Shown here: positions 33,190-47,373 of the stretch, piece by piece | How positions within the stretch are numbered: the first letter of the stretch is position 1 | Layout: every line of letters begins with the position of its first letter | Assembly (NCBI GenBank): GCA_025055115.1 | Contig: JANWYJ010000063.1 | Coordinates: 1-61,830 of the forward strand | DNA: 61,830 bases | Direction of reading: 5' to 3' | From: Gemmata sp. | GTDB lineage: Bacteria; Planctomycetota; Planctomycetia; Gemmatales; Gemmataceae | Notes under the pieces: generated by a model | Told to the model about the DNA's origin: nothing | Database searches by the model: none | The model's input: the letters and a program-made list of their open reading frames with translations, nothing else | Position numbers and translations under genes: made by a program

Positions 33190-34245
33190 CTAGCAGATGC
33201 GCGGTAATTGTTCACCTATCGGAAGAAGAATCACACGCGAAGCACCAATCGCCGTTCGGGCTACCACCATCGTAGGATGCTGCTGCGTGACCTGACCGAT
33301 GATGGCGGCCTGTTGACCCAGGGGGTGTTGCCGCATCGCCTCCACCAATCGTTCCGCCGCGGCCGCGGGGGCGATCGCCACGACTTTGCCCTCGTTGGCG
33401 ATCAGCAGTGGGTCCAGCCCCAACAAGTCGCAGGCCGCCCGCACCGATTCATCGACCGGAATTTGGTTTTCGTGAATTTCGATTCCCCAGCCGGCGCGGC
33501 TGGCAAATTCGTTCAATGTCGCAGCCAGGCCACCGCGCGTTGGATCGCGCAGGACGCGAATATCCGGGCAAACCTCGAACATCCGGGCGATTAGCCCATT
33601 CAGGGCCGCGGTGTCGCTGTGAGTGACCGTTTCAAACTCCAAGCCTTCCCGGACGCTGAGAATCGCAATCCCGTGGTTGCCCATCGACCCCGAAAGGATC
33701 ACGGCATCGCCGGGGCGAATGTGTTCCGGACCCAACGACCGCCCAGGCGGAACCCAACCCACGCCCGCGGTGGTGATGAAACAACCGTCGCCATGACCAC
33801 GTTCGACAACTTTAGTATCCCCGGTGACAATCTGCACTCCCGCTGTGGCCGCGGCGTGCGCCATCCGGTCGACAATTCGTTGCAAATCGGCCAGGGAAAA
33901 CCCTTCTTCGAGAATGAAACTCGCCGACAGGTACAATGGTTCGGCCCCGCTGACGGCCAGATCATTCACGGTACCATTGACAGCCAGATCACCAATACAG
34001 CCACCCGGAAAAAATAACGGCCGAACGACGTAGGCATCGGTCGTCAGGGCTAAGCGTCCCGCAACCGGCGGCACGATCGCGGCATCGCCCAAGGCTTCCA
34101 GGGCGGCATTGCGAAACGCAGGAACAAACAAATGTTCGACCAACTCGGCGGACAGTTTGCCGCCGCCGCCATGACCCAACACCACCTGAGGGTAGTCTCG
34201 CCGTGGCACTGGGCAGGTAGCATTCTCGAAATTCACGCGCGACAC
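33190..34245 (-). CDS. hypE: Hydrogenase maturation factor HypE
   Basis: A 351-aa PurM/AIR-synthase-like ATPase that dehydrates a carbamoyl group on its C-terminal Cys to make the thiocyanate used for the CN ligands of the NiFe site. The C-terminus reads PRIC, with the acceptor Cys as the last residue (351). [11 protein letters not shown] near residue 22 and [13 protein letters not shown] are the ATP-binding signatures. The GTG at 34245 overlaps hypD by 13 bases. An alternative GTG at 34236 forms a GTGA overlap with the hypD stop. Last gene of the hydrogenase operon. It needs HypF, which is not in this window. Confidence 0.96.
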
Positions 34246-35354
34246 GCGGTTCGCTCCGTTCCTAAGTCTAAGAGTCGTCCGTAGTTATAGTACGCTGCAC
34301 AGGCACCTTCGCTGGAAACCATGGTGGCCCCCAGAGGCGTTCGGGGGGTGCAGGCGGTGCCGAAGGCTTCGCATTGGTGGGGTTTGAGCGTTCCTTGTAA
34401 CACTTCTCCGCTGCGGCACCGCGGCGATTCTTGGGACCGAATCCCACTGAGGGGGAAGCGCGTTTCCGCGTCGAAGTCGCGGTATTTGTCGCGGAGTTTC
34501 CAGCCGCTGTGGGGAATGACACCAATGCCGCGCCAGGTCCGGTCGGTTTCCTCAAAGACTTCAGCGAGCATGGCTTGGGCCGCGCGATTACCCTCTCGTG
34601 TGACGACGCGCGAATAAGCGTTCTCAACGGTGTACGTGCCCGATTCGAGTTGGAGAATCGCCCGCCGGATGCCGTCTAACAGGTCGAGCGGCTCGAACCC
34701 GGTGACCACAATCGGTACCCGGTGGCGTTCCGCAAGCGGCACATATTGGTGATAACCCATCACACTGCAGACATGCCCTGCTGCCAGGAAAGCCTGCACC
34801 CGGTTGGTTGGCGACCGCATGATGGCCTCAATCGCCGGCGGGACCAAGACATGCGACACCAGGACCGAAAAGTTCGTCAGCCCTAGCCGCCGGGCTTGGT
34901 GGATGGCCAACGCATTGGCTGGGGCCGTTGTCTCGAAGCCGATACCGAAAAAGACCACCGAGCGTGTGGGGTTAGCCTTGGCCAATTGGATGGCATCCAG
35001 CGGTGAGTACACCACTCGAACATCCCCGCCGCGGCTTTTCACGCTGAACAAATCGCCGCTGGTTCCCGGTACCCGCAGCATATCACCAAAGCTGCAGAAG
35101 ATGACGTCGGGCATCGCAGCGATCGCCAGAGCTTTGTCGATCAACTCCACCGGGGTGACACACACAGGGCAACCGGGACCGTGGATCAATTCCACTTCGG
35201 GAGGCAGCAGTTGGTCGATGCCATGCCGGAGGATGGAATGCGTTTGCCCCCCACAAACCTCCATAATCGCCCACGGCCGCGTGACCGTAGCCCGGATGTC
35301 CGCGGCCAGTTTGCGAGCCACTTCGCCGTTGCGGAATTCGCTGAGGTATTTCAT
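34233..35354 (-). CDS. hypD: Hydrogenase maturation factor HypD
   Basis: A 373-aa iron-sulfur scaffold that, with HypC, carries the Fe(CN)2CO unit before insertion into the large subunit. Characteristic motifs are [14 protein letters not shown] (about 33-46), the [10 protein letters not shown] stretch (about 60-69) and [13 protein letters not shown]-terminal cysteines ([10 protein letters not shown], then [11 protein letters not shown]) would bind the [4Fe-4S] cluster. It starts within an ATGA overlap with the hypC stop, so translation is coupled. Confidence 0.97.
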
Positions 35355-35605
35355 GGTGTCTGCTCCTGCCCTTCATCGTCGAGTAAACCCAGCGATTCGA
35401 ATGTACGCAGGGTTTCCAGAGCCGTCGTTTCGTCGATTTTGCTGATGGCGAAACCCACATGAACAATCGTGTAATCACCCACCGTGAGTTCGGGCAGGTA
35501 CGCCAGACACACCTCTTTCACGACACCGCCGAAGTTCACTTTCCCCATGCGAGTGCCGTCGGCCTCATAGACCGATTCGACTCGCCCTGGTACGGCCAAA
35601 CACAT
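35351..35605 (-). CDS. hypC: Hydrogenase maturation chaperone HypC
   Basis: An 84-aa HypC/HupF chaperone that shuttles the iron-ligand unit between HypD and the hydrogenase large subunit. It begins MCLAVPGRV with the essential Cys2 and has the family phrase [17 protein letters not shown]. It ends with the usual acidic tail. Three bases separate it from the NHL gene upstream and it overlaps hypD by four bases. Confidence 0.97.
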
Positions 35606-35608
35606 CGT

Positions 35609-36682
35609 TCAACCCTCCTGCTGCCAGATCATCACGCGGTTATTACCTGAGTCGGCAATGGCCAGCCGCGGCCCGCAACGACACACCCCATAAGGCCAGC
35701 AGAGTGAATCGGCCGTGACGGCCTGCCAGCGGTTTTCACCTGCGCTGGCGAAGGTCTCTTGACCGAAGACAGCGTTGGCGGGATGACCCGCCCCAGTGGT
35801 CGGGACTGTGTTCCAATGCACAACGCGGTTGTTCGCCGTATCGGCCACACTCAGTTCATTCTTCCACGTCGTCACGCCATAAGGGAAGCGGAGGGTGGAC
35901 GGTCCAGGGGGAGCATACGGCGATTCATGGTTGGTGTCGAAAGCTGGTTGACCCAGCACCACGTCGGCGGGGCGATCGCTGACCGGGAACAGCCACCCCA
36001 AAACACGGTGGTTGCCAGCATCGGCGACGAACAACAGTTCCTCCGTGGCAGCCACTGCATGGGGCCAGCGGAAGGAATCGCCCGCGACCGGTCCGCCGCG
36101 ATTCTCGGCCCCGTGGGTGGCATCCGGTTGGCCCAGGATGATGTCCGCCGCTTGGCCATCCGAGGGAATTCCCTGCCACCCCAACACGCGCCGATTGCCC
36201 GTGTCGGCCACCCACAGCCAGCCCTTCGCCCAACCGATGCCATACGGCCAGTAGAAACCACACCCCGAAATTGCTCCGCCGCGATTGGGTTCGGTCGCCT
36301 CCTGGTGCGGTTGACCGAGCACCGCCGCCGGGGGGGTGTTGGGGCTGGTCGGGATTCGGTCCCAGATCAGCACGCGATGATGCCATGCATCGCAGACCAA
36401 TAATTGGTCATCGACAACCAGAACCCCCGTGGGGAGGTGAAGCCCCTTTGGTCCTTCGGTCGTGAAGTCGGGCTGGCCCAGCACAACATCGGCGGGTTGA
36501 TGATCTTGTGTGGGCCCTGTGTGCCAAATGAGCACACGGTGATTGCCACTATCGGCGACAATGAGTCGCTGGGCATCGAGCCAGACACCGCGCGGGGCGT
36601 ACAACTGCGAAGCTGTGGGACCCGCCGCGGGAAGGGCCAGCCGCCCCGGCGCTGGCGCTCCCAACCACAGGGCCGGTTTCAT
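35609..36682 (-). CDS. NHL-repeat propeller protein of the hydrogenase operon
   Basis: A 357-aa propeller built from about six NHL-type repeats, each with a phrase like VADSGNHRVLIW alternating with DVVLGQPDF. No signal peptide is apparent, so it is probably cytoplasmic, with the hydrogenase. An NHL-repeat gene beside hyp and Fe-S genes is, as I recall it, a recurring part of group 1h and Huc-type loci, but its role is unknown; assembly or interaction scaffolding are possible. The ATG at 36682 lies inside the first half of a 62-bp tandem duplication. The second half carries the same ATG overlapping the upstream gene's stop, which was probably the ancestral start. Confidence 0.88.
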   Translation of the reverse strand: MKPALWLGAPAPGRLALPAAGPTASQLYAPRGVWLDAQRLIVADSGNHRVLIWHTGPTQDHQPADVVLGQPDFTTEGPKGLHLPTGVLVVDDQLLVCDAWHHRVLIWDRIPTSPNTPPAAVLGQPHQEATEPNRGGAISGCGFYWPYGIGWAKGWLWVADTGNRRVLGWQGIPSDGQAADIILGQPDATHGAENRGGPVAGDSFRWPHAVAATEELLFVADAGNHRVLGWLFPVSDRPADVVLGQPAFDTNHESPYAPPGPSTLRFPYGVTTWKNELSVADTANNRVVHWNTVPTTGAGHPANAVFGQETFASAGENRWQAVTADSLCWPYGVCRCGPRLAIADSGNNRVMIWQQEG

Positions 36683-36796
36683 GATGACCACACCCACACC
36701 ACACCGTTGTCGATTCGTACGGGGAACTGCTCCACCGGTTTCATGATGGCCGCACCCACACCACACCGTTGTCGATTCGTACGGGGAACTGCTCCA
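36673..36796. repeat. 62-bp tandem duplication at an operon junction
   Basis: Units 36673-36734 and 36735-36796 differ at two or three bases. The right-hand unit encodes the last 17 or so codons and stop of the NifU-Rieske protein, with an ATGA overlap. The left-hand unit now supplies the ATG (36682) of the NHL gene. The duplication therefore separated a formerly overlapping stop/start pair. Confidence 0.92.
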
Positions 36797-37625
36797 ACTG
36801 TACCGCTGGGGCGGTCAAACACTCTCCCGTGTCGCAATCGAAGCGGAAACCATGCCACGGGCAGGCGAGGGTGTTAGCCTCGGGGTCGATCTTCCCCCCT
36901 TCCAGCGGTAACCCCTGATGGGGGCACTGGTTGCGATACGCCCGCACACCGCCAGCAGCCTGAATGACAAGCACCGACCCAGCCGGTGTATCAACAGCTG
37001 TGCCGCGGTCGGTCGCCAGTGCCGCGAGGGTTGGACCGGCGATCCAACCGTGCGTATCCCGTTTGCCTGCAGTAACGGGCAACCCCAAGGGCACGAAAGT
37101 GACGGCCTCCGCGGGTTCTGCCGGCACCTGCCGGACCTCCGTGATTTCCGGGCATTGCTCCTTGAGAGCCTCTTCGACCGTGGTCCGCAGAGTTACAGCC
37201 GCCATGGAGCAGCCCGTACAGGAACCGGACAATCGGACGTGGGCGATGCCATCCTGCACGTCGAGCAGTGTCACATCGCCGCCGTGCGACTGAATATGGG
37301 GCCGGATCATTTCGATGACCCGTTCGGCGCGGGTACGCAGGTCGGCCCGAATCAAACCATGCATGGCAAACAGCATCCGCACCACCGGATCATCCACCAA
37401 CTCCCAGAGGATTTCCTTGCCGCGAGGGTCGGCTTTCAAGGCCCGCACGATTTTCGTGAAGCCGAGCTTGTGAATCTCTTCGACCGCGGCTTGTAGTGCC
37501 CAGGCGCGCCGCCGGGCTTCCTCCGGCAGTCCGCGAACCGCTGCCGCCGCTTGATCGACCTTGGCGGCCAGAGCGTCCAAGTCGTCAGCCGCGGGTGTTG
37601 CGAGAGTAGACGAAATTTCAGTCAT
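36741..37625 (-). CDS. hhyE: NifU-Rieske iron-sulfur protein (HhyE/HucE-like)
   Basis: A 294-aa protein joining two iron-sulfur modules. After a helical N-terminus, a NifU C-terminal-type domain has Cys-x2-Cys in GSCTGCSMAA (about 134-143). A Rieske domain follows with CPHQGLPL and CPWHGFRFD, supplying two Cys and two His for a [2Fe-2S] cluster. In Mycobacterium smegmatis, HucE and HhyE have this architecture and are needed for uptake-hydrogenase activity, probably in electron transfer to the respiratory chain. The ATG at 37625 sits 2 bases after the upstream stop. Gene name by analogy. Confidence 0.9.
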   Translation of the reverse strand: MTEISSTLATPAADDLDALAAKVDQAAAAVRGLPEEARRRAWALQAAVEEIHKLGFTKIVRALKADPRGKEILWELVDDPVVRMLFAMHGLIRADLRTRAERVIEMIRPHIQSHGGDVTLLDVQDGIAHVRLSGSCTGCSMAAVTLRTTVEEALKEQCPEITEVRQVPAEPAEAVTFVPLGLPVTAGKRDTHGWIAGPTLAALATDRGTAVDTPAGSVLVIQAAGGVRAYRNQCPHQGLPLEGGKIDPEANTLACPWHGFRFDCDTGECLTAPAVQLEQFPVRIDNGVVWVRPS

Positions 37626-37627
37626 GA

Positions 37628-37999
37628 TCAAAACCCTTCCGCGGAGTACGTGGCATGCTGTTCCAGCCGCTCCAAGGCTTTTTGCTTCAACAAGTCCGCG
37701 AAAACGGCCGTCGCCATCGCCTGGACGATCTCGGCCACAGTTCCCACAGCCGGAGGTTCAACGCGCCGCCGTGGGACGGCACGCAACACAAAGCAGGCCC
37801 CATCGGGATTATCGAGCAAGAAATCCGCCATCACTGCGGTTACGAATTCGGTGAGTCGAACCGTGTCACTGTCCGGGTTTTCGCGGAGGCGGGCCAAGGC
37901 GTTGGCGGCACCTTGATTGCGTTGCTCGAGCCGTTCCACGAACCGTTCGACGGCCGTAGTGAGCAGGAAATCGAACTGTTGCCGTTCGTGGAGTTCCAC
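37628..37999 (-). CDS. Small helical accessory protein of the hydrogenase operon
   Basis: A 123-aa, probably all-helical protein without recognisable motifs or signal peptide. I chose the GTG at 37999 because it is preceded by a good AAAGGAGAAGG site; a GTG at 38038 would add 13 residues of repeat-derived sequence. The first 12 codons are a copy of a 36-bp segment repeated upstream at 38056-38091, right behind the stop of the TPR-like gene. Location between the TPR-like and NifU-Rieske genes suggests a conserved assembly or adaptor role, unproven. Confidence 0.7.
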   Translation of the reverse strand: MELHERQQFDFLLTTAVERFVERLEQRNQGAANALARLRENPDSDTVRLTEFVTAVMADFLLDNPDGACFVLRAVPRRRVEPPAVGTVAEIVQAMATAVFADLLKQKALERLEQHATYSAEGF

Positions 38000-38091
38000 C
38001 TCTTGACCTTCTCCTTTCTCTTCCTGTCCTACTCCCACTCTTCCTGTCCTACTCCCAGGAAATCGAACTGTTGCCGTTCGTGGAGTTCCAC
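37964..38091. repeat. 36-bp direct repeat plus 20-bp tandem at an operon junction
   Basis: The same 36 bases occur at 37964-37999 (coding start of the accessory gene) and 38056-38091 (2 bases after the TPR-like stop). Between them a roughly 20-bp unit is doubled (38021-38040 and 38041-38060, TTCCTGTCCTACTCCCA core). The upstream copy retains a GTG start but runs into a stop after 20 codons. It looks like the former start, displaced by duplication. Confidence 0.9.
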
Positions 38092-38093
38092 GA

Positions 38094-39320
38094 TCAACTC
38101 TCGACGGCCGCAGGGTTGGCCGCGCGAGCGGCCGTGATGCTCTCGACTAACTCCATAACGCCCGCAGCGGCTTCCGCGTCCTCGTACCACTGGAACAGTT
38201 TGTAGGCTTCGTTCAACTTTTCCAAGGCAGCGGCAAACTGACCCAGGTGAGCCAGCGCATTAGCCTGATTGGCCAGCACGCGTGCGTAACCGACCGGATC
38301 GTCGGCCCGCGTGCGTACGCGCAGCACGGCATCGTAAAGTTCCACGGCTTGCCAGAGGTTGTCGGCCGGATGCCCCGAGGGCAAATATTGCAGAGCATTT
38401 GCGAAATTCAGCGTGGTGCTGGCCCAACGGGCCGGATCAGAGTCGCGGGTGAAGACCTTGAGGGCTTCGCGAAACGATTGAATCGCCACAGCCATGCGCA
38501 GCGGATCGCTGGCAGCGGTCGCCGGGATTGACAAGTAGGCTAATCCGAGGTTGTTGTGAACTTCTGCGTACAGTTCTGGGTGACAATCCACCGCCAGGCC
38601 GCAAGCGATGGCTTGTTGATAAGCATTGATCGCTTCCAGCCAATACGTTCGGTGGCCCTGCGCATGTTCGTGGTAGGTCGTGCCCAGGGCGAACCACAGT
38701 CCAGCGCGCAAGCGGATCAGGGGCGTATCCGCGGCCAGCTGAAGAGCGTGCCGGTAGTGGGTGCAGGCTTCCAGCCAGCGTTCGCGATCGGTTTTGAGAA
38801 AAGCCGCGAGTTGGCCCAACAACTGGGCCGCCAGAAGGGGCGAGGGAGTACGCGCCGCGGCAATTGCGGTCTGGAGATGCCTTTCAGCGGCTGAGGCATC
38901 GTGTCGTGCCCAGGCGGCGGCGGCATGGACCGCAAGAACGTGGGCCAACAGTTCACCATCGAGTTCATCGATCGGTGGGGGTTGGTCGATCCACCCCAGG
39001 GAGAAACCAATCACCTCCGCCAAGGGGCGCAGCGGTGAGGCGGAGGCCTGCTGGAAGACCGCGATCGAAGGGGATAGTACGAGGCGGTTGTAAACTCCCA
39101 AGGGGCCGTCGGGGAGCTGTTCCAGAGCCGCCGCGTGATTGCCCGCCAAGGCTGCGGCGAAGAATTGCCATTCCTTTGGCCAGAGGATGGGCACGTCGCC
39201 CCGCAACAATTGCGCAGCAGCTTGGCGATCGGAGGTGGGCGGAAGCAATAAGTAGCCCGCTGGCAGGGGGAAAAGGCCTACCGGTTGTGGCCGTTCTAGC
39301 AGATCAGTCAGCGGTTTCAC
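38094..39320 (-). CDS. TPR-like repeat protein of the hydrogenase operon
   Basis: A 408-aa helical-repeat protein. The first 120 residues are a Pro- and Leu-rich domain (LPAGYLLLPP). The rest are paired helices such as HYRHALQLAADTP, AINAYQQAIACGL and ALAHLGQFAAALEKLNEAYK, typical of tetratricopeptide repeats. The GTG at 39320 was preferred because it overlaps the preceding gene's stop by 17 bases and starts VKPLTDLL; the longer open frame further upstream lies over that gene. TPR proteins are reported in mycobacterial Huc-type loci. It probably acts as an interaction scaffold. Confidence 0.8.
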   Translation of the reverse strand: MKPLTDLLERPQPVGLFPLPAGYLLLPPTSDRQAAAQLLRGDVPILWPKEWQFFAAALAGNHAAALEQLPDGPLGVYNRLVLSPSIAVFQQASASPLRPLAEVIGFSLGWIDQPPPIDELDGELLAHVLAVHAAAAWARHDASAAERHLQTAIAAARTPSPLLAAQLLGQLAAFLKTDRERWLEACTHYRHALQLAADTPLIRLRAGLWFALGTTYHEHAQGHRTYWLEAINAYQQAIACGLAVDCHPELYAEVHNNLGLAYLSIPATAASDPLRMAVAIQSFREALKVFTRDSDPARWASTTLNFANALQYLPSGHPADNLWQAVELYDAVLRVRTRADDPVGYARVLANQANALAHLGQFAAALEKLNEAYKLFQWYEDAEAAAGVMELVESITAARAANPAAVES

Positions 39321-39564
39321 GATGGAATTCCCCGGGCCATGTGGGTGAGCGTAGCAGAACGCGATCAGCGCCGCGTTGATAGTAGCGCGCAGCGACCATC
39401 GCCGCTTCGATTGTGGGAAAATCCGCAATCCGGTGCCAAATGGTTTCGACCGGGTGGCCCTCGGCTGCTGTCGTCCACCAATCGATCCCCAGATAAACCA
39501 CCCAGCGACCGTTATCCGCCACGAGCTTGGTGATAACACCCAAGGCTTGCTCGGCTTGGCTCAC
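39304..39564 (-). CDS. Small accessory protein (86 aa) of the hydrogenase operon
   Basis: An 86-aa mixed alpha/beta protein, unrecognised. It starts MSQAEQALGVITKLV and contains RWVVYLGIDWW and PTIEAAMVAARYY. No signal or membrane segment. It is followed by an overlapping TPR-like gene and preceded by a 60-base gap after the 102-aa gene. Membership of the operon is clear from spacing and strand; function is unknown. A good AGGAGG-like site (GGAGGTTCCC) precedes the ATG. Confidence 0.75.
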   Translation of the reverse strand: MSQAEQALGVITKLVADNGRWVVYLGIDWWTTAAEGHPVETIWHRIADFPTIEAAMVAARYYQRGADRVLLRSPTWPGEFHRETAD

Positions 39565-39624
39565 GTGGGAACCTCCTGGAAAATCTGGGGCGAATTCCGA
39601 TTCCGAAGAGCTGTGCGAGCTGGC

Positions 39625-39933
39625 CTATTCGGGCGCATCGAGAGCAATCCGTAACGCCCCCTGTTGCTCATCCCAGCGGGCGGGGCGCGGCCCTGGAGCG
39701 ACATTCGCGCCCATCACCTCGCGCACCAAGACACTCCGTTCACCCGCGGCATTGCGTTGTTTGAGGAATAGCCCCCCGACCGCCGGACCCCGGGTTGGCA
39801 GCAGCCACAATTCCCCTGCGGTGCAGAGCGCTACCAAGACACCCTGAGGAAAGTACCGCTCGGCCACTTCCGGGGGCATCCGCACATAACCATCGGCTGT
39901 GAATTCGACGATCACGTTGTTAAGGACGATCAC
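39625..39933 (-). CDS. Small accessory protein (102 aa) of the hydrogenase operon
   Basis: A 102-aa protein starting at a GTG (39933) that overlaps the protease stop as GTGA. The phrase VEFTADGYVRMPPEVAERYF resembles the SpoVT/AbrB swapped-hairpin fold, but the rest does not clearly fit and I would not name it. The C-terminus is Pro/Ala-rich. An 18-bp tandem duplication covers the start, adding six codons and an alternative GTG at 39915. The position beside the protease suggests a role in large-subunit processing. Confidence 0.72.
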   Translation of the reverse strand: MIVLNNVIVEFTADGYVRMPPEVAERYFPQGVLVALCTAGELWLLPTRGPAVGGLFLKQRNAAGERSVLVREVMGANVAPGPRPARWDEQQGALRIALDAPE

Positions 39934-39942
39934 GTTGTTAAG
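39907..39942. repeat. 18-bp tandem duplication over a stop/start junction
   Basis: GACGATCACGTTGTTAAG is perfectly doubled (39907-39924 and 39925-39942). The right-hand copy carries the protease TGA overlapped by the GTG start of the next gene. The left-hand copy adds six in-frame codons with a second GTG. Confidence 0.95.
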
Positions 39943-40421
39943 GCTCTTGGTGTGTATCGTTCGAGTAATAAGTCGACCACATGGTTGACAGCCGCATCGA
40001 CCGCCGGAGATAACCCTTCCCCCCATCTGGTTTGCTCGACTTCGATCAAGACGACGCGAACTTCGCGGGGGTATTCGTCTTTGAGCAACCAACGGGCGAA
40101 GGCCAATGCGTGATCCCAGCGGAAAGCGTGGAGATTGATGCCGGAAGGCGGCGGCCGTTGCTCAACTTCCGACCCGGGAAGCTCAAAGATCGACCCGGGG
40201 GGGGAACCGCTCGAACAGGCATCGATCAACACCACCGTGGGCACCCCCCGCATCTGAAAAGCGACATCCATGCCGCCGGTACCACCATCGGCACAGCGCA
40301 CGCCAGGCGGCAGGCCGGCTTCCCACAAACGGCGAATCGCGACCGGTCCGGCGGCATCATCGCCGCGGAGCAAGTTCCCGCAGCCAATAATCAGTACACG
40401 GGGCGTGTTCTCCGCAGTCAC
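39930..40421 (-). CDS. Hydrogenase maturation protease
   Basis: A 163-aa member of the HyaD/HycI/HoxM endopeptidase family, which clips the C-terminal extension of the large subunit after nickel insertion. It opens VLIIGCGNLLRGDDAAG with the metal-binding Asp, followed by ADGGTGGMDV, LIDACSSGSPPG and NLHAFRWDHAL with the expected His. The GTG at 40421 overlaps the large-subunit stop as GTGA. Its substrate should be the gene immediately upstream, whose 20-residue tail after the last ligand is unusually kept. Confidence 0.92.
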   Translation of the reverse strand: MTAENTPRVLIIGCGNLLRGDDAAGPVAIRRLWEAGLPPGVRCADGGTGGMDVAFQMRGVPTVVLIDACSSGSPPGSIFELPGSEVEQRPPPSGINLHAFRWDHALAFARWLLKDEYPREVRVVLIEVEQTRWGEGLSPAVDAAVNHVVDLLLERYTPRALTT

Positions 40422-42043
40422 CGCGAACCCTCGCCGATTCGGAAACGGGCCAGTTCTTGGCCGGTTTTGGCATCGTAGGTATGAACCGTGCAGACCAAAC
40501 AGGAGTCGAACGACCGGGCGACATGCCCCATTTCCACAGGATCGGTCGGATCGGCAATGCGGGCACCGATGAACGCTTGCTCCATGGGGCCGTGGACGTT
40601 GTTCTGATCGAGCGGGCCGATGTTCCATGCTGTGGGCGTGACCACTTGGTAGTTCTCGATTTTCCCATTTTTGATGATGATCCAGTCGGAGAGGCTGCCG
40701 CGGGCGGCCTCGGTGCTGCCAAAGCCTTTCCCCTCAGCATGTTCGGTGGGTTTGCTGTAGAATTTATCGTGTAAGTCTAATTCTCCCAACCACTTACGAG
40801 CGAGTTTATAGTATTTGGCCGCTTCATGCATCCGGGCCATGACCCGTACCAGTACACTGGGGCCGACGGTGCGAATCGCGTCGAGAAAAAGCGGGTCGTA
40901 GTCCTGATGCGGAGCAGCTCCCGGGCGACCGGCGATGACCTGCCGGGCCAGAGGGCCGGCTTCCAGGGGGATTGGCCCTTTCCCCGGCACCCAATACCGC
41001 GGCGACTTCGCCCAACTGTACTTGCCTTGCTTGTGTCCTTCGGCGGGATCGATCGGTTCGGTCACACCCTCCCAGGGGTGTAGCAGCGAATGGCCTTTGT
41101 AGAAGCTGTGTGTCACATCCTCACGCACATTCGCTTGGTCAAAGTCGTGGAAATCGCGACCATCGTAGATACCACTGCGGTTGATGAGAGCGGCATTGCG
41201 TCCTTCGATCGTGGGCCGTTCGTACAGTTCGGGTTGGAAGTAGGTTCCGGTGGCCAGATAGGCCCCGCAGCCGCCACCGTATTGGTGCAAGCCAATGTCC
41301 ATGCCCATGCGTAGGAAGAACCCACAATCGCTGTTGCGTTGGGCATCGTTTTCGTCGGCCCAATTGAGAACATCGTTCCAGGTTTTGTTCGCCAGCCAAC
41401 GATCGACCGAACAACCCAGCCACCGTTTTTCGAGCCATTCGGTTTTCCAATATTCCAGAATGGCGATGGCCCGCGTGACATCAGCCAGTGTCGGGGCGCA
41501 CATGACGCCGCCGGGAATCATGAAGCTGCTGTGCGGCCATTGCCCCCCAAAGATGGCGTAAACTTCCACGGGTTTGCCAGAGAGTGTGACGCCCGGTTCA
41601 TAGCTGGTGCCCACGAAGGGGGCAAACCGTTTGACCGCCTCGGGGTAAAACGGTGATTTCGCGTAGTTCTTATTCGTCAGGTCGATGGCAAACAGGGCGT
41701 AAAACCATCGCGGAATGGACTGCAGTGTTTCGCACGCTTGCGCGATGTTGCGCACCAGGGTGGCGCTGGGTGGTACATGTGTGCGCCAGGCGGTATCGAG
41801 AGCATACGCGGCTTTGTAGAGGTGGCTGCCGCCGCAGATGCCACAGATGCGCGGAGTGACAATTAACCCGGCTTGGGGGTCTTTGCCTTTGAGGATAATC
41901 TCAAAGCCGCGGAACATGCTGGCTTCAGTCCAGGCATTGGTCACGATGCCTTGATCAACCTGGATGTTGAGGTCAAGGTCGCCTTCGACGCGGCCCAGGG
42001 GGCTGATACGTTGAGTATTGGGAGGTAGGAGCGTAGTAACCAT
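40418..42043 (-). CDS. hhyL: [NiFe]-hydrogenase large subunit, group 1h type
   Basis: A 541-aa catalytic subunit that oxidises H2 at a NiFe(CN)2CO centre. The N-terminal ligand motif is RICGICGGSH (Cys67, Cys70). The C-terminal motif is SFDSCLVCTVH (Cys515, Cys518, His521), not the DPCxxC form of most hydrogenases. With long conserved phrases such as GGSHLYKAAYALDTAW and HVARSFDSCLVC, this matches actinobacterial group 1h (high-affinity) enzymes as I know them. A 20-residue tail follows His521, the predicted protease site. The ATG at 42043 follows CGGAG and lies 56 bases from hhyS. Enzymes of this group consume atmospheric H2 in persisting aerobes. Confidence 0.95.
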   Translation of the reverse strand: MVTTLLPPNTQRISPLGRVEGDLDLNIQVDQGIVTNAWTEASMFRGFEIILKGKDPQAGLIVTPRICGICGGSHLYKAAYALDTAWRTHVPPSATLVRNIAQACETLQSIPRWFYALFAIDLTNKNYAKSPFYPEAVKRFAPFVGTSYEPGVTLSGKPVEVYAIFGGQWPHSSFMIPGGVMCAPTLADVTRAIAILEYWKTEWLEKRWLGCSVDRWLANKTWNDVLNWADENDAQRNSDCGFFLRMGMDIGLHQYGGGCGAYLATGTYFQPELYERPTIEGRNAALINRSGIYDGRDFHDFDQANVREDVTHSFYKGHSLLHPWEGVTEPIDPAEGHKQGKYSWAKSPRYWVPGKGPIPLEAGPLARQVIAGRPGAAPHQDYDPLFLDAIRTVGPSVLVRVMARMHEAAKYYKLARKWLGELDLHDKFYSKPTEHAEGKGFGSTEAARGSLSDWIIIKNGKIENYQVVTPTAWNIGPLDQNNVHGPMEQAFIGARIADPTDPVEMGHVARSFDSCLVCTVHTYDAKTGQELARFRIGEGSR

Positions 42044-42099
42044 TGTGAACTCCGGGAGAGTTGGAAGGGTAAGTGGCGATAAGTACGTGGAGGGAACGA

Positions 42100-43071
42100 T
42101 CAGACGACAAACATGTCTTCTTTCGACCATTTGGGGGCGGCGATCTTGGCGGCCGCGGCGTGGGCCATGTAGGTGACGTGATCGACACCTGCAGGTACGT
42201 CTTTGGGAATGACACCGCTGATTTTCTGGGTTTTGAAGACCGTTCCAGGCATCAGATCGTAGAAGGGGAATTCGGGTTCGGTACAGCCGGTGCAGGGCAT
42301 GCCAGCCCGGGTTTTGCTCGATTGTCGATTCCACAAAATCCGGTTACAGGGAGAATGGGTCATGGGGCCGCGGCAGCCAAACTCGTAGAACAGGCAGCCG
42401 GTGCGGGTTCCTTGGCCAAATTCTTTGGGTGATTGCTTGTACTCGAAGAACTGAACGCGCGTGCAACCTGTCTGGGTGAAGGTCTTGAAGAAGGTGACCG
42501 GGCGTTGCAAGTCGTCCAACGCGATGTCCTTGGCACGCCCGGTGGCGATGGCGACAAGTATTTGCGTGACCCAATCTGGGTGCGCCGGGCAACCGGGGAT
42601 GTTGATGACCGGTAACCCCCAGCGGCTGCGGAAATCGGCTCCCAGATAACCCCCGTGAGCGCGTTTGACATACTGTAGCCCCACGTTATCGACCGGGTTG
42701 GGAGCTGTGGCTGGGATGCCCCCCCAACAGGCACAGTCACCGATAGCAACCACCGCATTGGCCACCTGGCTCAGTTCGCGAACCCAATCTTTCATAGGTC
42801 GATCGGCAAACATGTTGAACCGGCCGCTGCCGTGGGGACCGAGAATGACGGTGCCTTCGAAAACGAAAATGTCCAAGGGCCGCCGACCGCTCGTCAGGTC
42901 GTGCAGCAACGCTTTCACTTGGTCACCCAATTCCAAACCCAACGACGGATGCCAGATCACTTCAATCCCAAAATCGGTGACCAAATCGCAGGCACTCGGC
43001 TCTTCGGCATTGAGAAACGACATGGTATTGCCGCTGCACGCCCCCCCTTGGAGCCAAAGAAGCGTCGCCAT
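42100..43071 (-). CDS. hhyS: [NiFe]-hydrogenase small subunit, group 1h type
   Basis: A 323-aa iron-sulfur subunit carrying electrons from the NiFe site. It lacks the Tat leader of periplasmic uptake enzymes and starts MATLLWLQGGACSG, so it is cytoplasmic-facing. The usual proximal-cluster Cys-x2-Cys reads CSGN (Cys12, Asn15), consistent with the non-standard proximal cluster of group 1h. Later cysteines occur in GDCACWGG, PGCPAHPDW, GTRTGCLFYEFGCRGP and MPCTGCTEPEFP. The end SKEDMFVV is group-typical. The ATG at 43071 follows GGGAGG; a TTG two codons earlier is unlikely. Confidence 0.95.
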   Translation of the reverse strand: MATLLWLQGGACSGNTMSFLNAEEPSACDLVTDFGIEVIWHPSLGLELGDQVKALLHDLTSGRRPLDIFVFEGTVILGPHGSGRFNMFADRPMKDWVRELSQVANAVVAIGDCACWGGIPATAPNPVDNVGLQYVKRAHGGYLGADFRSRWGLPVINIPGCPAHPDWVTQILVAIATGRAKDIALDDLQRPVTFFKTFTQTGCTRVQFFEYKQSPKEFGQGTRTGCLFYEFGCRGPMTHSPCNRILWNRQSSKTRAGMPCTGCTEPEFPFYDLMPGTVFKTQKISGVIPKDVPAGVDHVTYMAHAAAAKIAAPKWSKEDMFVV

Positions 43072-43106
43072 AATCAACCTCCCATCGACGAGGAACAGCT
43101 GTGGGG

Positions 43107-43751
43107 TTAGTCGGTTCGTTGCGGCAGAATGATCAGGCCGCGGGCGGCCGCGGCCCGGAGCAATTCTGCAGGATTATGAACATTCAGCTTCCGCATGAGA
43201 TTGGCCCGGTGGCGGGTCGCGGTGTGCGGGCTGATGAACAGTCGCTCGGCCACTTCGGCGGTGGTCAGGCCGTCGGCGATCAGTTGCAACACTTCGCGCT
43301 CGCGCTCGGTGATGTCACTATCGCTCAGTTCCATCCCCTGCATGCGTTTGCGTTCGATGAGCGGGCAGAGGTAGATCTGCCCCGCGAGAACCGCATCCAA
43401 GGCGCGGAAGAGGTCATCTTCCAAGGCTTGTTTGAGGATGTAGCCGTCGGCCCCTTCTCGGAGAGCCCGGGCGACAAAGGCGGCATCATCGTACATCGAC
43501 ACAATCAACAGCCGAAGCCGATCGGGGCGATCAGCCAGGCGGCTGACCACCTCCAGGCCATTGAGCCGCGGCATAGCCAAATCCAACAGCATGACATCGG
43601 CGGGAACCGTGCGGGCCAGCTCCAACGCCTCCTCGCCGTTGGTACCTTCGGCGACGACTTTGAACCGCTTGCTTTGGTTCAAAAGTGCGGCCAGTCCGCG
43701 TCGGACCAACGCATGGTCATCGATCAGAATGATGCTCGGTCGGTTGGCCAT
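43107..43751 (-). CDS. NarL/FixJ-type response regulator
   Basis: A 214-aa transcription factor. The receiver (1-120) has Asp11/Asp12, phosphoacceptor Asp57 in VMLLDLAMPRLNG, and a conserved Lys in YILKQALED. The C-terminal LuxR-type helix-turn-helix is ITEREREVLQLIADG with TTAEVAERLFISPHTATRH. The ATG at 43751 lies within the end of the kinase gene (35-base overlap), so the pair is translationally coupled. Placement between hypB and hhyS suggests it controls hydrogenase expression. DosR-type regulators of the same family control a hydrogenase in mycobacteria. Confidence 0.93.
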   Translation of the reverse strand: MANRPSIILIDDHALVRRGLAALLNQSKRFKVVAEGTNGEEALELARTVPADVMLLDLAMPRLNGLEVVSRLADRPDRLRLLIVSMYDDAAFVARALREGADGYILKQALEDDLFRALDAVLAGQIYLCPLIERKRMQGMELSDSDITEREREVLQLIADGLTTAEVAERLFISPHTATRHRANLMRKLNVHNPAELLRAAAARGLIILPQRTD

Positions 43752-45402
43752 GAGAGATTGCCAGGCGTACGTTGATGGTGGTGCCACAGGGTCCGGATTG
43801 CACCTGAAATTCTCCGCCAAGCATGTCGACCCGTTCGCGCATGCCCAGCAATCCCAGACCACCGGTCACAGCCGTGGGGTCGAAGCCACAACCATCGTCG
43901 GTGATGATGAGCTGCAGATGGCGGGCGGAATGCGACAACGTCAGCCGCACGTTCTGGGCCGCGGCATGCTTAGCCGTGTTCGTGAGGGCTTCTTGAGCGA
44001 TGCGGTAGACGGCAGTTTCCACCGGCGGGGGAAAGCGACGCGTGGGTTCATCGGCGAACAGTTGCACCCGAATACCGGTGCGGCGGCCGAAGTCGTCCGC
44101 AAGTTGTTGCAATGCCGCCGATAGCCCGCAGTGATCGAGTGTGGGTGGCCGCAGTTGCCGCGACAACTCGCGAATCCGCACCGCGGCATCATTCACTTGT
44201 TGCCGGAGCAGGTCCAATTCAGCGCGCAGGTCGCTGAGTTCTGCAGGAACGAGGCCGGCCACGGCTTGCAAGCTGAGTTTGATGGCGATGAGGGCTTGCC
44301 CGGTTTCGTCGTGCAGTTCCCGGGCAATGTGGCGTCGTTCGTCTTCGAGCCGTTGGGCGTTGGCGGCCGACATGGCTTGCAGCTGCCGGTTCGATTCCTC
44401 CAAACTGCGCCACAAGCGAGCGTTTTCGACGGCAACGGCGGCCATGTTGGCGAGCGTTTCCAGAAACGCGGCATCGTGCCAGCTGAACAGCCCCCCCTGG
44501 TAGCGATGCAGTTCAAAAAAGCCCAGCACCTGATGGCGATCGTTCTTGATCGGCACGCACATGGCACGTAACACGCCGTGGCGGTGGGGATCCGCCAGCG
44601 GATCGGCCGGATAGTTGTTGGAGAAGTAGGGGAATTCCGTGGCCAGGACGAATCCTGGGGTTCCTTCGCCACAGCGCCAGCGGCGGCGTTCGTCGTGCCA
44701 GCGGCCGGCCGACCAGTAGCCATCGCTTTCCATCACCCAACCCCCGACACCATCCGCAACGGCCAGCCCGGCAAAACCGGCCTCGGCTTCCAGCAGCCGC
44801 GCGGCTTGTTCGACCAAACGCCGCAGTAACAGTGGTGGAGCCAGATGTTGGTTGATGGTGGCATTGAAGGCCAAAAGCATTTCCATCGACCGGTTCCAAT
44901 CGACCAGTCGTTCGAAAAGCCGACCGCGATCGAGGGCGATGGTGGCCGCATGGGCCGCGGTGGCGACCAGAGCGACGTCGGTACGGCGAAAACCATTTGT
45001 TTTGACGGCCATCACCACCGCTGTGACACGATTGTGATGGTCCAACGCGGGAACGGCGATACGATCGCCCTCGACGCAAGGCTGCTGGGTGCGACAGGCC
45101 CGCGCGACCACGGCCAGTTCCTCGGGGTGGCATTCAGCACCTTCCAATCTGCGGCCATTCTCCACGACCGCCTGGAGTTGAAAGGCCTCCTCGTCGACCC
45201 AACCGCAGGCCACGCGGTCGGCACGAGTCATGCGCGCGACAGAGAGGGCCACCACGTCGGCCACGCCGGCCGGGTGGGTTTGCCGGCCTATCAACTCCAC
45301 CGCGGAACGTAGAATTTCCGTCGCCTGGTGGAGCTGGGCCAGTTCGCGGGCGGTCGCCGAACTGGCGCTGAGGCCGCGGTTAGCGACGAGCGAGCGATTC
45401 AC
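43717..45402 (-). CDS. GAF-GAF sensor histidine kinase
   Basis: A 561-aa cytoplasmic sensor kinase with no membrane span. Two GAF domains (about 30-160 and 185-330) precede a HisKA_3 dimerisation helix, with the phosphorylated His364 in RRHIARELHDETGQ. A HATPase domain contains IAQEALTNTAKHA, DDGCGF and GLGLLGMRER. GAF-GAF-HisKA_3-HATPase is the architecture of mycobacterial DosS/DosT, which sense O2, CO, NO or redox state through heme; whether heme binds here is unknown. It overlaps hypB by 23 bases and the response-regulator gene by 35. Confidence 0.93.
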   Translation of the reverse strand: MNRSLVANRGLSASSATARELAQLHQATEILRSAVELIGRQTHPAGVADVVALSVARMTRADRVACGWVDEEAFQLQAVVENGRRLEGAECHPEELAVVARACRTQQPCVEGDRIAVPALDHHNRVTAVVMAVKTNGFRRTDVALVATAAHAATIALDRGRLFERLVDWNRSMEMLLAFNATINQHLAPPLLLRRLVEQAARLLEAEAGFAGLAVADGVGGWVMESDGYWSAGRWHDERRRWRCGEGTPGFVLATEFPYFSNNYPADPLADPHRHGVLRAMCVPIKNDRHQVLGFFELHRYQGGLFSWHDAAFLETLANMAAVAVENARLWRSLEESNRQLQAMSAANAQRLEDERRHIARELHDETGQALIAIKLSLQAVAGLVPAELSDLRAELDLLRQQVNDAAVRIRELSRQLRPPTLDHCGLSAALQQLADDFGRRTGIRVQLFADEPTRRFPPPVETAVYRIAQEALTNTAKHAAAQNVRLTLSHSARHLQLIITDDGCGFDPTAVTGGLGLLGMRERVDMLGGEFQVQSGPCGTTINVRLAISHGQPTEHHSDR

Positions 45403-46090
45403 GGCGGTTCTCCAGCATGGCGGTATTGGACTGTTGACGACGATCCACGAGGAAATCGAGCCAGCTAGTCATTCCCTGGCCCGTTTTGGCCGACACGATC
45501 AGAAGGGGCAGCCCGGGACGCACCGCGTGGAGGTTCCGTTCCGCGAGGGCAGGATCGAATTCACACGCCGCGGCCAAATCAGCCTTGGTGATGATGCCAA
45601 CATCCGCGGTGTTAAACAGCGTCGGATACTTCAGTGGTTTATCTTCACCCTCGGTCACCGACAGAAGGACAACCCGGAGTTGTTCGCCTAAATCGTAGCT
45701 GGAAGTGCACACGAGATTGCCGACATTTTCGATGAAAAGGAAGTCGAAGTCGGCCAGGTTCCAGCCCACCAGATGGCGTTCGACCATCTCCGCTTCCAGA
45801 TGGCAGATGCCGTGGGTATTGATCTGCCGCGCAGGTGCGCCGCTGCGGGCAAGACGAAGGGCGTCGTGATCGGTTTCCAGATCGCCGACCAGTGCTGCGG
45901 GGCGGTAGCCCCGGTCGCGAAGAGCCGCCAAGGTGCGCTCGAGAAACAACGTCTTCCCCGTGCCCGGGCTAGACACCAGATTGACGACAAACGTACCCGC
46001 GGTCTTATATTGAGCGCGCAGTGTGGCCGCGATCATGTCGTTTTTCTTGAGCAAGCCCTGACGAACTTCGAGAATGCGCGGGGTCGTCAC
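45380..46090 (-). CDS. hypB: Hydrogenase nickel-insertion GTPase HypB
   Basis: A 236-aa GTPase that, with HypA, loads nickel into the large subunit. It has a Walker A loop SSPGTGKT (about 41-48), GDLETDHD switch, ENVGNLVCTSSYDLGE and TKADLAAA guanine-specificity motif. The N-terminal His-rich nickel store of some HypB proteins is absent. The C-terminus (TGQGMTSWLDFL) is standard. The gene sits 10 bases after hypA. Confidence 0.96.
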   Translation of the reverse strand: MTTPRILEVRQGLLKKNDMIAATLRAQYKTAGTFVVNLVSSPGTGKTLFLERTLAALRDRGYRPAALVGDLETDHDALRLARSGAPARQINTHGICHLEAEMVERHLVGWNLADFDFLFIENVGNLVCTSSYDLGEQLRVVLLSVTEGEDKPLKYPTLFNTADVGIITKADLAAACEFDPALAERNLHAVRPGLPLLIVSAKTGQGMTSWLDFLVDRRQQSNTAMLENRRESLARR

Positions 46091-46100
46091 GATCCGCCTC

Positions 46101-46445
46101 CTACTCCACCTCTAAGGATTCGATCTCCAATTCCCGGCCGGCGCGAACATCGCCACTGGGTGTGTTGCACACCGGGCAGCGGAAACTCTGCACACTCGGC
46201 AGTTCCACCTCCCGTTGACAGAACTGGCAAAACACGCGCACCCCCACCCGGCGTAGTTCCAGTCGCGATCCTTCCAACCGTGTTCCGGCCGTGGCCACAT
46301 CGTAGGCGAAGCGCAAAGCGTCGATAGCGACCCCCGACAGATCGCCCACCCGCAGCGTCACGGCGATAACCCGCTGCGCCCCCGCTTCGATCGCGGTCGC
46401 CTCCGCCATCTGCACTAAGCGATTGGCCAGGGACAGTTCATGCAC
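46101..46445 (-). CDS. hypA: Hydrogenase nickel chaperone HypA
   Basis: A 114-aa nickel metallochaperone. The GTG at 46445 gives the conserved start Met-His-Glu-Leu-Ser (nickel ligand His2); a GGAGGG site lies upstream. A zinc-binding domain has two Cys-x2-Cys pairs (CQFC and CPVC) in the C-terminal half. Length matches the family's usual 113 or so residues. It precedes hypB by 10 bases and follows the DUF1641 gene by 19. Confidence 0.95.
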   Translation of the reverse strand: MHELSLANRLVQMAEATAIEAGAQRVIAVTLRVGDLSGVAIDALRFAYDVATAGTRLEGSRLELRRVGVRVFCQFCQREVELPSVQSFRCPVCNTPSGDVRAGRELEIESLEVE

Positions 46446-46464
46446 GGCTTGAGGCCCTCCGTGA

Positions 46465-47265
46465 TTATCCCGGCGGTGGGCTGACCTCCGAGCGGTTGAA
46501 GGTTTGGCCATAGCGCTTGACGATATAAAGCCCCACACCCAGTGCCCGCTGCACATCAGGATCACGCAGCGCTTTGAATAAACCCCAGGGGCCGACGGGC
46601 TGATCGGGCCGATGCTTCGCCTCGCGGTACGGGCCAGCCAATTGCCGCCCCACTTCCACCAAGACCGCGACCACTTCCGGATCAAACAGCCCGGCGTTGA
46701 TGAGAGCGGTGACGGCATCGATCACCTTCGGTACGCTACTGAGTACCTGTTGCAACTTCTTCGCTTCGAGTGGCCATTGGAAGACGCGGACTTCTTGGAG
46801 ACTTTCGGCCACATTCTCTGTCAATTCCTCACCACGGCGGAGGAAACCGTCGATACTGGCGGCGCCGAACGCCAGCAGCGGCAGTTGATCGAGCAGTTGA
46901 TGCAACGCGGCTAGCGTCGTCGGTGCCGCCAAGCGTTCGAGCAATCCGGCCTCGATGAGACGGGTGAGCGCGGGTGAAGTCAGGACGGGGGCCAGTTTCG
47001 TCACGGCGGTGACAAGTTGCGGAATCTGCTCGGCCCAGGAATCCGTGGCGGCCAGGGGCTGCGTCACCTCACTGAGCGCATCGTGGATGTTGTCGGTGAG
47101 TTGTTCGCCGCGGCGGAGGAAGCCATCGGTGGCTTCAACGACAAACGCCAGCCAGTCGAGCCGGTCGAGCAGACGTTCCAAGGCTGCCGCAGTCTGGGGG
47201 TCATCCAACCGCTGCAACAGTCGTTGCGACGGGGAGAGGGTCGCTGTGTGACCATTCGTTTCCAT
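46465..47265 (-). CDS. DUF1641 protein, first gene of the hydrogenase operon
   Basis: A 266-aa helical protein with two internally similar halves: each carries a GFLRRGEQLTDNI / GFLRRGEELTENV phrase (about 46-60 and 140-154). The C-terminal segment PVGPWGLFKALRDPDVQRALG with VKRYGQ is the DUF1641 signature. DUF1641 proteins occur beside formate dehydrogenase and hydrogenase genes, with no established function. It opens the run of 17 co-directional genes ending with hypE, and the operon promoter should lie upstream of 47265. Confidence 0.85.
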   Translation of the reverse strand: METNGHTATLSPSQRLLQRLDDPQTAAALERLLDRLDWLAFVVEATDGFLRRGEQLTDNIHDALSEVTQPLAATDSWAEQIPQLVTAVTKLAPVLTSPALTRLIEAGLLERLAAPTTLAALHQLLDQLPLLAFGAASIDGFLRRGEELTENVAESLQEVRVFQWPLEAKKLQQVLSSVPKVIDAVTALINAGLFDPEVVAVLVEVGRQLAGPYREAKHRPDQPVGPWGLFKALRDPDVQRALGVGLYIVKRYGQTFNRSEVSPPPG

Positions 47266-47285: not shown

Positions 47286-47331
47286 AGGTTGCAACTGAGT
47301 GAGCCGGTACCACTTCTCTGAATTGCAACCT
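47286..47331 (-). promoter_or_regulatory. Inverted repeat in the hydrogenase operon leader
   Basis: AGGTTGCAA (47286-47294) and TTGCAACCT (47323-47331) are perfect inverted copies with 28 bases between. Each centre is itself nearly palindromic (GTTGCAAC and ATTGCAAC). They lie 21-66 bases upstream of the first operon gene. This may be an operator, possibly for the operon's own response regulator, or a long-loop RNA stem. Confidence 0.4.
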
Positions 47332-47353
47332 AACACTCTCGTCAAACCGCAAC

Positions 47354-47373
47354 AATAGCGTGTTTTTGCTATT
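47354..47373. other. Small inverted repeat upstream of the hydrogenase operon
   Basis: AATAGC and GCTATT are separated by eight bases. It is short, and may be chance or part of a promoter or protein site. Confidence 0.25.

Follow-up and report, generated by a model that had tools for sequence, protein, structure and literature searches.

The question raised by this locus is which kind of NiFe hydrogenase it encodes, and how that enzyme is assembled and controlled. The window, i.e. the whole stretch of DNA analyzed here, is positions 1 to 61,830 of contig JANWYJ010000063.1 of Gemmata sp. (Planctomycetota; source genome of 4.93 Mb, 98% complete). It contains 17 open frames at 33190-47265, all on the minus strand, as are the repeat and the -10 hexamer before the first gene, and many of them overlapping. 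The initial annotation, made from the DNA letters alone, had pointed out this run of co-directional, overlapping genes and had seen in it a compact, complete-looking hydrogenase operon that includes a dedicated two-component system; both descriptions hold, the operon being near-complete and of the uptake type. Its label, a group 1h (Hhy) high-affinity hydrogenase, was not borne out: judged from its sequence, the operon enzyme is a group 2a hydrogenase (Huc), not a 1h one.

The assignment is based on matches to solved structures, on phylogeny, on the lack of DUF5947 and DUF6084 and on a gene set like that of Huc loci. The best solved match of the large subunit, HucL (40418-42046), which extends C-terminally past the L2 motif, is the Huc chain 7uus_A at 915.6 bits, whereas HofG of C. 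necator (5AA5, chain 5aa5_C), which we take to be the group 1h reference, reaches 121.6 bits against the window; the small subunit, HucS (42100-43077), best matches the Huc chain 7uur_D at 590.8 bits; both subunits match over almost their whole length. The HucL tree held 95 large-subunit rows, namely the window, 86 rows called 2a and references of groups 1h, 1d, 2b and 3d, the labels of the last three being presumed. Three of the four 1h references were labelled through 79-83% identity to HofG, and all four come from plasmids. The window joins the 86 rows called 2a with an SH-aLRT support of 100, apart from all the references, and the 1h references form a clade of their own, also with a support of 100. 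Most 2a rows were obtained by similarity to the window, their label deriving from the solved Huc and from the genera named in PMC7784904. Only the 2a/1h split was used, since the distant references stand on very long branches, and a related Gemmata locus, L059, was omitted because of stops inside its HucL.

Placement in group 2a is the outcome that the initial annotation itself had set against its label. The comparison of synteny, which it had also proposed, gave Huc and not 1h, the gene set and order matching those found at huc in Mycobacterium intracellulare, Thermus and Sulfobacillus; an M. intracellulare plasmid encodes a Huc-type enzyme with which HucL shares 73.5% identity. The group 2a operon partners listed in PMC7784904 (Rieske-type hucE, the NHL protein and maturation genes) are all in the operon, and the NiFe ligands, a processed C-terminus and a dedicated protease are present. 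A group 1h enzyme would be alike in its NiFe core and in its lifestyle role, high-affinity respiratory uptake being known for that group, and two of the four loci taken as 1h references likewise include a NifU-like protein. However, besides the separate clade and the low HofG score, the operon partners are different: DUF5947 and DUF6084, annotated in 4/4 of the 1h reference loci, are unmatched in the 17 operon proteins (E up to 0.1), and a DUF1641 gene is not annotated in the 1h stretches fetched. The tails of all four references read LPCGVHM, against CLVCTVH in the window, and a Rieske-type hucE is a marker of 2a (PMC6883350). Provided that the 1h and 2a references bear the right labels, we regard a group 1h enzyme as practically out of the question, and the corrected group matters to surveys that deduce physiology from hydrogenase class. 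As a separate observation, one M. intracellulare plasmid (L035, L134) carries a Huc locus and a HofG-like 1h locus together, with Calvin-cycle genes alongside (RuBisCO small subunit, phosphoribulokinase, cbbX).

As an enzyme, this is an ordinary member of group 2a; it is new in the make-up of its scaffold and in a conserved control region. The first gene, hucM (46465-47265), encodes a 266-residue protein with DUF1641 (PF07849) and a match to the membrane-associated Huc subunit 7uus_Q (E 1.5e-13). The part aligned to 7uus_Q is the docking segment, i.e. HucM residues 20-79, resolved by cryo-EM and scaffolding the HucS2L2 lobes (PMC10017518), and the DUF1641 tail is also present; DUF1641 subunits are found in menaquinone-linked formate dehydrogenases as well (PMC8808070). 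A 53-residue model of the docking unit hits the window protein twice, with 82.6 and 80.3 bits, the units spanning residues 15-67 and 107-159 ahead of the C-terminal tube/membrane-foot region. Members of the set served to train this model, so that bit scores lean high, with the one-or-two split unaffected; matches below 25 bits were not counted.

The set comprised 88 loci, the window and 87 others taken from a scan of named genomes, six plasmid loci and the planctomycete genome G344. The named-genome relatives are the best 80 of 446, which applies to all locus counts given here; the sample is biased to near kin and lacks the 2a enzymes of cyanobacteria and most of those of proteobacteria. HucM was recovered from 72 of the 88, with one unit in 33 (31 Actinomycetota, Thermus and Sulfobacillus), two in 37 (15 Chloroflexota, eight Planctomycetota, seven Acidobacteriota, five Gemmatimonadota and two others) and three in a Bryobacter pair, which counts as one case because its members are near-identical; the first unit of L063 is partial. 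HucM lengths are those of the longest frames, with unsure starts, and unit counts, spacing and tails were relied on. Unit starts lie 92-97 residues apart in 37/41 cases, the tail after the last unit is of constant length (medians of 117, 121 and 117), and the inter-unit linker, which is amphipathic (mean z of 2.0 over 39), shows homology to the first part of the tail (E 7e-6). Unit number requires two changes, the minimum for three states, on an 11-gene tree of 44 labelled rows, five of them Actinomycetota, and three on the larger HucL tree. The tandem docking unit with its tube-like linker suggests stacked tiers of lobes. No mention of unit number was found in the available portions of the HucM literature (PMC10017518, PMC11018855, PMC13098282, PMC10792529), and the duplication seems to be undescribed in the literature searched. 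The series of one, two and three units is natural material on how size is set in a giant quinone-extracting enzyme.

Among the 16 loci from which HucM was not recovered, ten lie on contigs that end before the hucM place (L097 retains a partial tail). The place is covered with no HucM found in L050, L046 and L055, and L038, L121 and L122, 2a loci of Pseudomonadota and Bacteroidota, have neither unit nor tail in the available flanks; both Pseudomonadota loci among these carry a sigma-54 regulator gene upstream. HucM was also absent by search from 4/4 of the genomes, as assembled, behind L042, L046, L050 and L055, a sub-branch of Planctomycetota, the genome of L047 being positive. Planctomycete Huc loci without HucM include L050:7687-9899 and L046:2069-4053.

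Control is the other part of the question. Between hypB and hucS lie a histidine kinase with GAF, HisKA_3 and HATPase_c domains (43717-45402; Pfam), conserved in related loci, and, adjoining it, a NarL-type response regulator with receiver and GerE domains (43107-43862; PF00072, PF00196), whose true start is probably at 43751. Scored by tblastn score cuts, such a pair adjoins huc in 9/10 Acidobacteriota, 6/6 Gemmatimonadota, 6/12 other Planctomycetota (four contigs too short, none in L050, broken in L059) and 4/17 Chloroflexota (three contigs too short); it was found above the cut in 0/35 Actinomycetota (six contigs too short, 29 with enough flank) and 0/7 other loci (one too short). Thus, the built-in regulation singled out by the initial annotation is present, and it is not peculiar to this genome, being conserved in a clade of three phyla and in some Chloroflexota. 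Many Actinomycetota have a sub-cut pair of about 30% identity; in the mycobacterial loci L095, L098, L102-L105, L107, L108, L110-L112 and L116-L118 it is located 2-8 kb upstream of huc. For mycobacteria, the transcription factors that act directly on huc are called unidentified (PMC13098282; commentary PMC13289019; 2026), and the pair is not described in the available text of the literature found on group 2a with histidine kinase or on atmospheric hydrogen with response regulator. The pair is a candidate direct regulator of huc. Redox or starvation are guesses for the signal of the kinase; haem or cysteine sensing was considered and discarded, since in the kinase no Cys is nearly invariant and no His ahead of the catalytic one reaches 90% conservation.

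Ahead of hucM, an 18-bp inverted repeat, ATAGCAAAAACACGCTAT (47355-47372), is the predicted operator, and counting this promoter-like element the operon system reaches 47372. It matches ATRGCATGNNCATGCYAT at 13/16 positions, with a held-out position weight matrix (PWM) p of 0.005, the minimum for 200 shuffles. The consensus ATRGCATGNNCATGCYAT was resolved from octamers enriched upstream of hucM, present in 8/19 loci against at most six in 60 shuffles. In a stretch of some 310 bp ahead of the first HucM unit, a match of at least 13/16 occurs in 19/20 loci with the pair beside hypB or hucM (L059 counted) and in 0/33 control loci, where the best match is 11. Among loci without an available hucM, the stretch before hucS has a match of 14 in L047 and of 12 in L056; no repeat match of 12 or more was found in L076, L046 and L050, and L055 has one only, away from hucS. 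Since the consensus derives from the same loci, groups were held out: a PWM trained on Acidobacteriota and Gemmatimonadota recognizes 7/8 Planctomycetota at p<0.01, the window included, and one trained on Planctomycetota recognizes 12/12 of the held-out Acidobacteriota and Gemmatimonadota; the same matrices gave 1/16 and 0/16 in Chloroflexota and similar loci and 0/33 and 0/33 in Actinomycetota with Thermus and Sulfobacillus. In 14 whole genomes, 45 places match the pattern with up to two mismatches, while its reversed control matches 13, and with at most one mismatch nine places remain, in 8/14 genomes, all at huc (coordinates compared by hand).

A -10-like hexamer lies 20-23 nt past the repeat in 16/19 loci, some of them close kin, against at most eight in 500 shuffles, a spacing test independent of how the repeat was discovered; in the window this is TAGGTT (47327-47332), 22 nt past the repeat. 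The repeat centre would fall near -42, which is an activator position. When the operon was scanned for generic sigma-70 promoters and for terminators, the counts were close to those of shuffles or lower. In 8/12 Acidobacteriota and Gemmatimonadota loci and in L049, hucS is preceded at 70-135 bp by another repeat-like site (L049:8780, L053:8886, L060:8908, L047:315 and others); none is found there in the window. The GAF kinase and the NarL-type regulator would act on the repeat just upstream of the hucM -10 element and switch the operon on. This conserved huc control region seems to be undescribed in the literature searched, and its regulator, operator and promoter layout can now be tested in phyla other than that of the mycobacteria.

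The residues for catalysis and quinone reduction are kept. Alignments, window included, held 87 large and 83 small subunits after short or stop-holding rows were dropped. In 87/87 large subunits the L1/L2 cysteines are found, as are the counterpart of D-His166 and the final His ahead of the tail that is cleaved off; the RICGIC and SFDSCLVC motifs noticed in the initial annotation are present, both in the large subunit, and contain the four invariant cysteines. The menaquinone-holding residues K212, Y229 and Y301 of HucS are found in 83/83, 81/83 and 83/83 small subunits (numbers from PMC10017518, with the offset derived from the alignment of the window with 7uur_D). As the quinone-site and ligand residues are kept, we infer a respiratory uptake hydrogenase with menaquinone as acceptor. 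HucSL would oxidize H2, probably to trace levels, and HucS would pass the electrons straight to menaquinone delivered through the HucM scaffold/tube. Menaquinol would then feed aerobic respiration, for mixotrophy or persistence and not for CO2 fixation by RuBisCO; the genome holds two haem-copper oxidases and no match to RuBisCO. Maturation would rely on the operon HypABCDE, on HypF from elsewhere in the genome (contig C43) and on the dedicated protease, and HucE, the TPR and NHL proteins and the small proteins would be Huc-specific accessories. The genome also has, on contig C65 (L125:8465-12538), the gene set of a 3b-like (sulfhydrogenase-type) NiFe hydrogenase, so called by likeness, its NCBIfam scores being under the curated cut-offs; the operon hyp genes probably serve both enzymes.

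Taken as a whole, we have high confidence in a group 2a system in which menaquinone brought in via HucM would be directly reduced and the kinase/regulator pair would switch expression at the repeat. The sequences show the group, the gene set, the kept residues, the unit number of HucM and the conservation of the operator; activity, affinity, the quinone route and the direction of regulation are deduced from them. Joining scaffold and control, we propose, tentatively and as somewhat more doubtful than probable, that HucM may be a modular ruler, with every unit and its linker contributing one more tier, of four HucS2L2 lobes, to a single menaquinone tube that they surround. The enzymes of planctomycetes, acidobacteria, gemmatimonads and Chloroflexota would be two-tier M4(SL)16 complexes of about 1.6 MDa, with three tiers in the Bryobacter pair, versus the M4(SL)8 clover of mycobacteria (M4S8L8 in M. 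smegmatis; PMC10792529); in three of these phyla one kinase/regulator pair would turn huc on via the repeat.

Several findings weigh against the main reading, a group 2a system under its own regulator. A two-unit HucM departs from the solved scaffold. Four of the 33 operator-free loci (Chloroflexota L067, L074, L075 and L096) have the pair nearby, farther from hucS, and that of L099 narrowly misses the score cut; in L043 the stretch tested holds no site, and a 13-match one lies farther away, in a divergent spacer. With a limit of one mismatch, six of the 14 genomes, among them that of the window, yield no site, as two or three positions of their huc repeats deviate; one yields none even at two mismatches, and the single two-mismatch place of G000 is not at huc. 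The window repeat is among the most degenerate, its -10 hexamer is weak as a single match, and an equal-scoring site is present elsewhere in the window, at 21173-21190; this one lies in an unrelated coding frame and was taken as chance. Operator and pair occur in one clade of the 11-gene tree, so that shared descent could explain part of their link. This common ancestry would also suit a repeat that belongs to a global regulator and not to the operon's own. Against that alternative, all the sites with at most one mismatch are at huc, the repeat has an 8-2-8 symmetry, NarL-type regulators binding sites like such dyads, and L050 has neither the pair nor the repeat in its 21.6 kb; we consider a global regulator rather unlikely, and the operon's own regulator is preferred.

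Affinity and integrity of the operon have to be weighed as well. Group 2a was first tied to H2 recycling (PMC7784904), and an enzyme of ordinary affinity could recover H2 from nitrogenase, from fermenting neighbours or from the 3b-like hydrogenase that the genome carries. However, three distinct group 2a bacteria oxidize sub-atmospheric H2, during growth (PMC7784904), as does the Huc of M. smegmatis (PMC10017518), and in the HucL tree the window stands nearer to the Huc of mycobacteria than to the 2a rows from Pseudomonadota or Bacteroidota; ordinary affinity is an unlikely explanation. Trace-level H2 use by the window enzyme is likely, and high affinity plausible, by analogy with those three bacteria and with Parageobacillus, where a Huc-type operon is induced more than 900-fold at near-zero growth (PMC12976888). 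A relic operon is suggested by the matching locus, L059, of an uncultured Gemmata metagenome-assembled genome (MAG), which is broken. Conversely, 17/17 frames are open in the window, and the two copies have diverged under purifying selection, with a dN/dS of 0.041 for hucL and 0.168 for hucM, the highest value among the seven genes that were compared; all dS values are close to 1, i.e. near saturation, and the hucS value double-counts some codons. A relic is thus very improbable, and the window operon is read as intact.

L059 has the closest named HucL (92% identical, among the best 80 of 446) and the same flanks as the window, at about 80% DNA identity. In L059:5976-15648 the genes for the enzyme and its regulators are broken or deleted: most of the kinase is deleted, the regulator has a stop within the part that is probably coding, frameshifts split hucS, hucL has two TGA codons and the protease lacks its last quarter. 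The genes for the 100-residue, 86-residue and TPR proteins are gone, that for the 136-residue protein is damaged at its ends only, hucE has an internal deletion and the NHL gene has lost its first part. Conversely, the aligned parts of hucM, hypA, hypB, hypC, hypD, hypE and three flank genes have no stops, and the repeat is retained at 14/16. The L059 genome has a second, stop-free match to a NiFe large subunit, probably the 3b-like one, and the hyp genes are therefore probably kept for that enzyme. The pair decays together with the Huc enzyme genes, as expected of a system dedicated to Huc. Selenocysteine at the two TGA codons was rejected, as they fall at Trp positions well before L2; a recoded TGA is unlikely, since all three kinds of stop occur in the broken stretches (some near frame breaks) and none in the flank genes. 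L059 being a MAG, assembly faults are possible.

The operon is transcribed in the order DUF1641 gene, hypA, hypB, kinase, regulator, small subunit, large subunit, protease, two small proteins, TPR protein, third small protein, NifU-Rieske protein, NHL protein, hypC, hypD and hypE. All the proteins except the three small ones are above a family cut-off (Pfam, NCBIfam); the protease, HypABCDE, NifU-Rieske, NHL and TPR proteins and two-component system named in the initial annotation were each identified in this way. After hucM come hypA (46101-46445, GTG start; PF01155, 105.8 bits) and hypB (45380-46090; PF02492, 57.5 bits), which is 40-71% identical to the hypB of related loci and 87% to that of L059. 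Past hucL, the maturation protease hucD (39930-40421; HycI protease in Pfam, TIGR00072 at 129.6 bits) has an inferred start, its longest frame beginning at 40628. A conserved Huc-operon protein of 100 residues (39625-39927) has no family match and has homologues of 31-62% identity at the same position in many related loci; another of 86 residues (39304-39564) is present in part of them. The TPR protein (38094-39539; PF13424), whose true start is probably further downstream, is conserved in position, and so is the third small protein (136 residues, 37628-38038) in part of the loci, with an NCBIfam match only below the cut-off. The remaining genes are hucE, for the NifU-Rieske protein (36741-37631; PF01106, PF00355), the NHL-repeat gene (35609-36766; PF01436, three stretches), hypC (35351-35605; PF01455), hypD (34233-35354; PF01924, 509 bits), the sole one found in the genome, and hypE (33190-34245; PF02769, PF00586).

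Huc is rare in the phylum sample: a match above 1000 bits was found in 2/392 genomes, this one and G344, the other 26 matching genomes reaching at most 422 bits. The initial annotation was unsure how widely its system had been described in Planctomycetes; group 2a was already recorded in one Planctomycetota genome of the 2020 survey (PMC7784904), and group 1h has been separately reported from the phylum (PMC8027828). The operon is not a planctomycete peculiarity, being common to Acidobacteriota and Gemmatimonadota. A recent transfer into this lineage is unsupported: the HucL tree by itself gave the window no definite position within the 2a rows, and in the 11-gene tree its neighbours are 11 other Planctomycetota, with a support of 87 (not above 95). 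Two further Huc loci, L042 and L063, are in MAGs named Kuenenia and Gracilibacteria; their binning or naming may be off, since L063 falls among Chloroflexota in the trees.

Among known systems, the Huc of M. smegmatis (7UTD, 7UUS) has in common with the window the HucS, HucL and HucM homologues and the catalytic and quinone-site residues, and mycobacterial huc loci contain the hucE, TPR and NHL genes; the mycobacterial HucM has one docking unit, whereas that of the window has two. The Huc loci of Actinomycetota differ also in control, with no pair above the cut (29 loci with flank) and no operator (0/31 loci), while the window has both. The other Planctomycetota loci, the sister branch to the window in the 11-gene tree, have the same genes; in 5/6 of those with the pair, the block of hucM, hypAB, kinase and regulator is divergently transcribed. 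Those of Acidobacteriota and Gemmatimonadota, which are related to the mixed 2a clade described in PMC7784904, share with the window its gene order, the pair between hypB and hucS, a two-unit HucM and the same operator; they differ from it in the second repeat-like site of most members and in the three HucM units of the Bryobacter pair.

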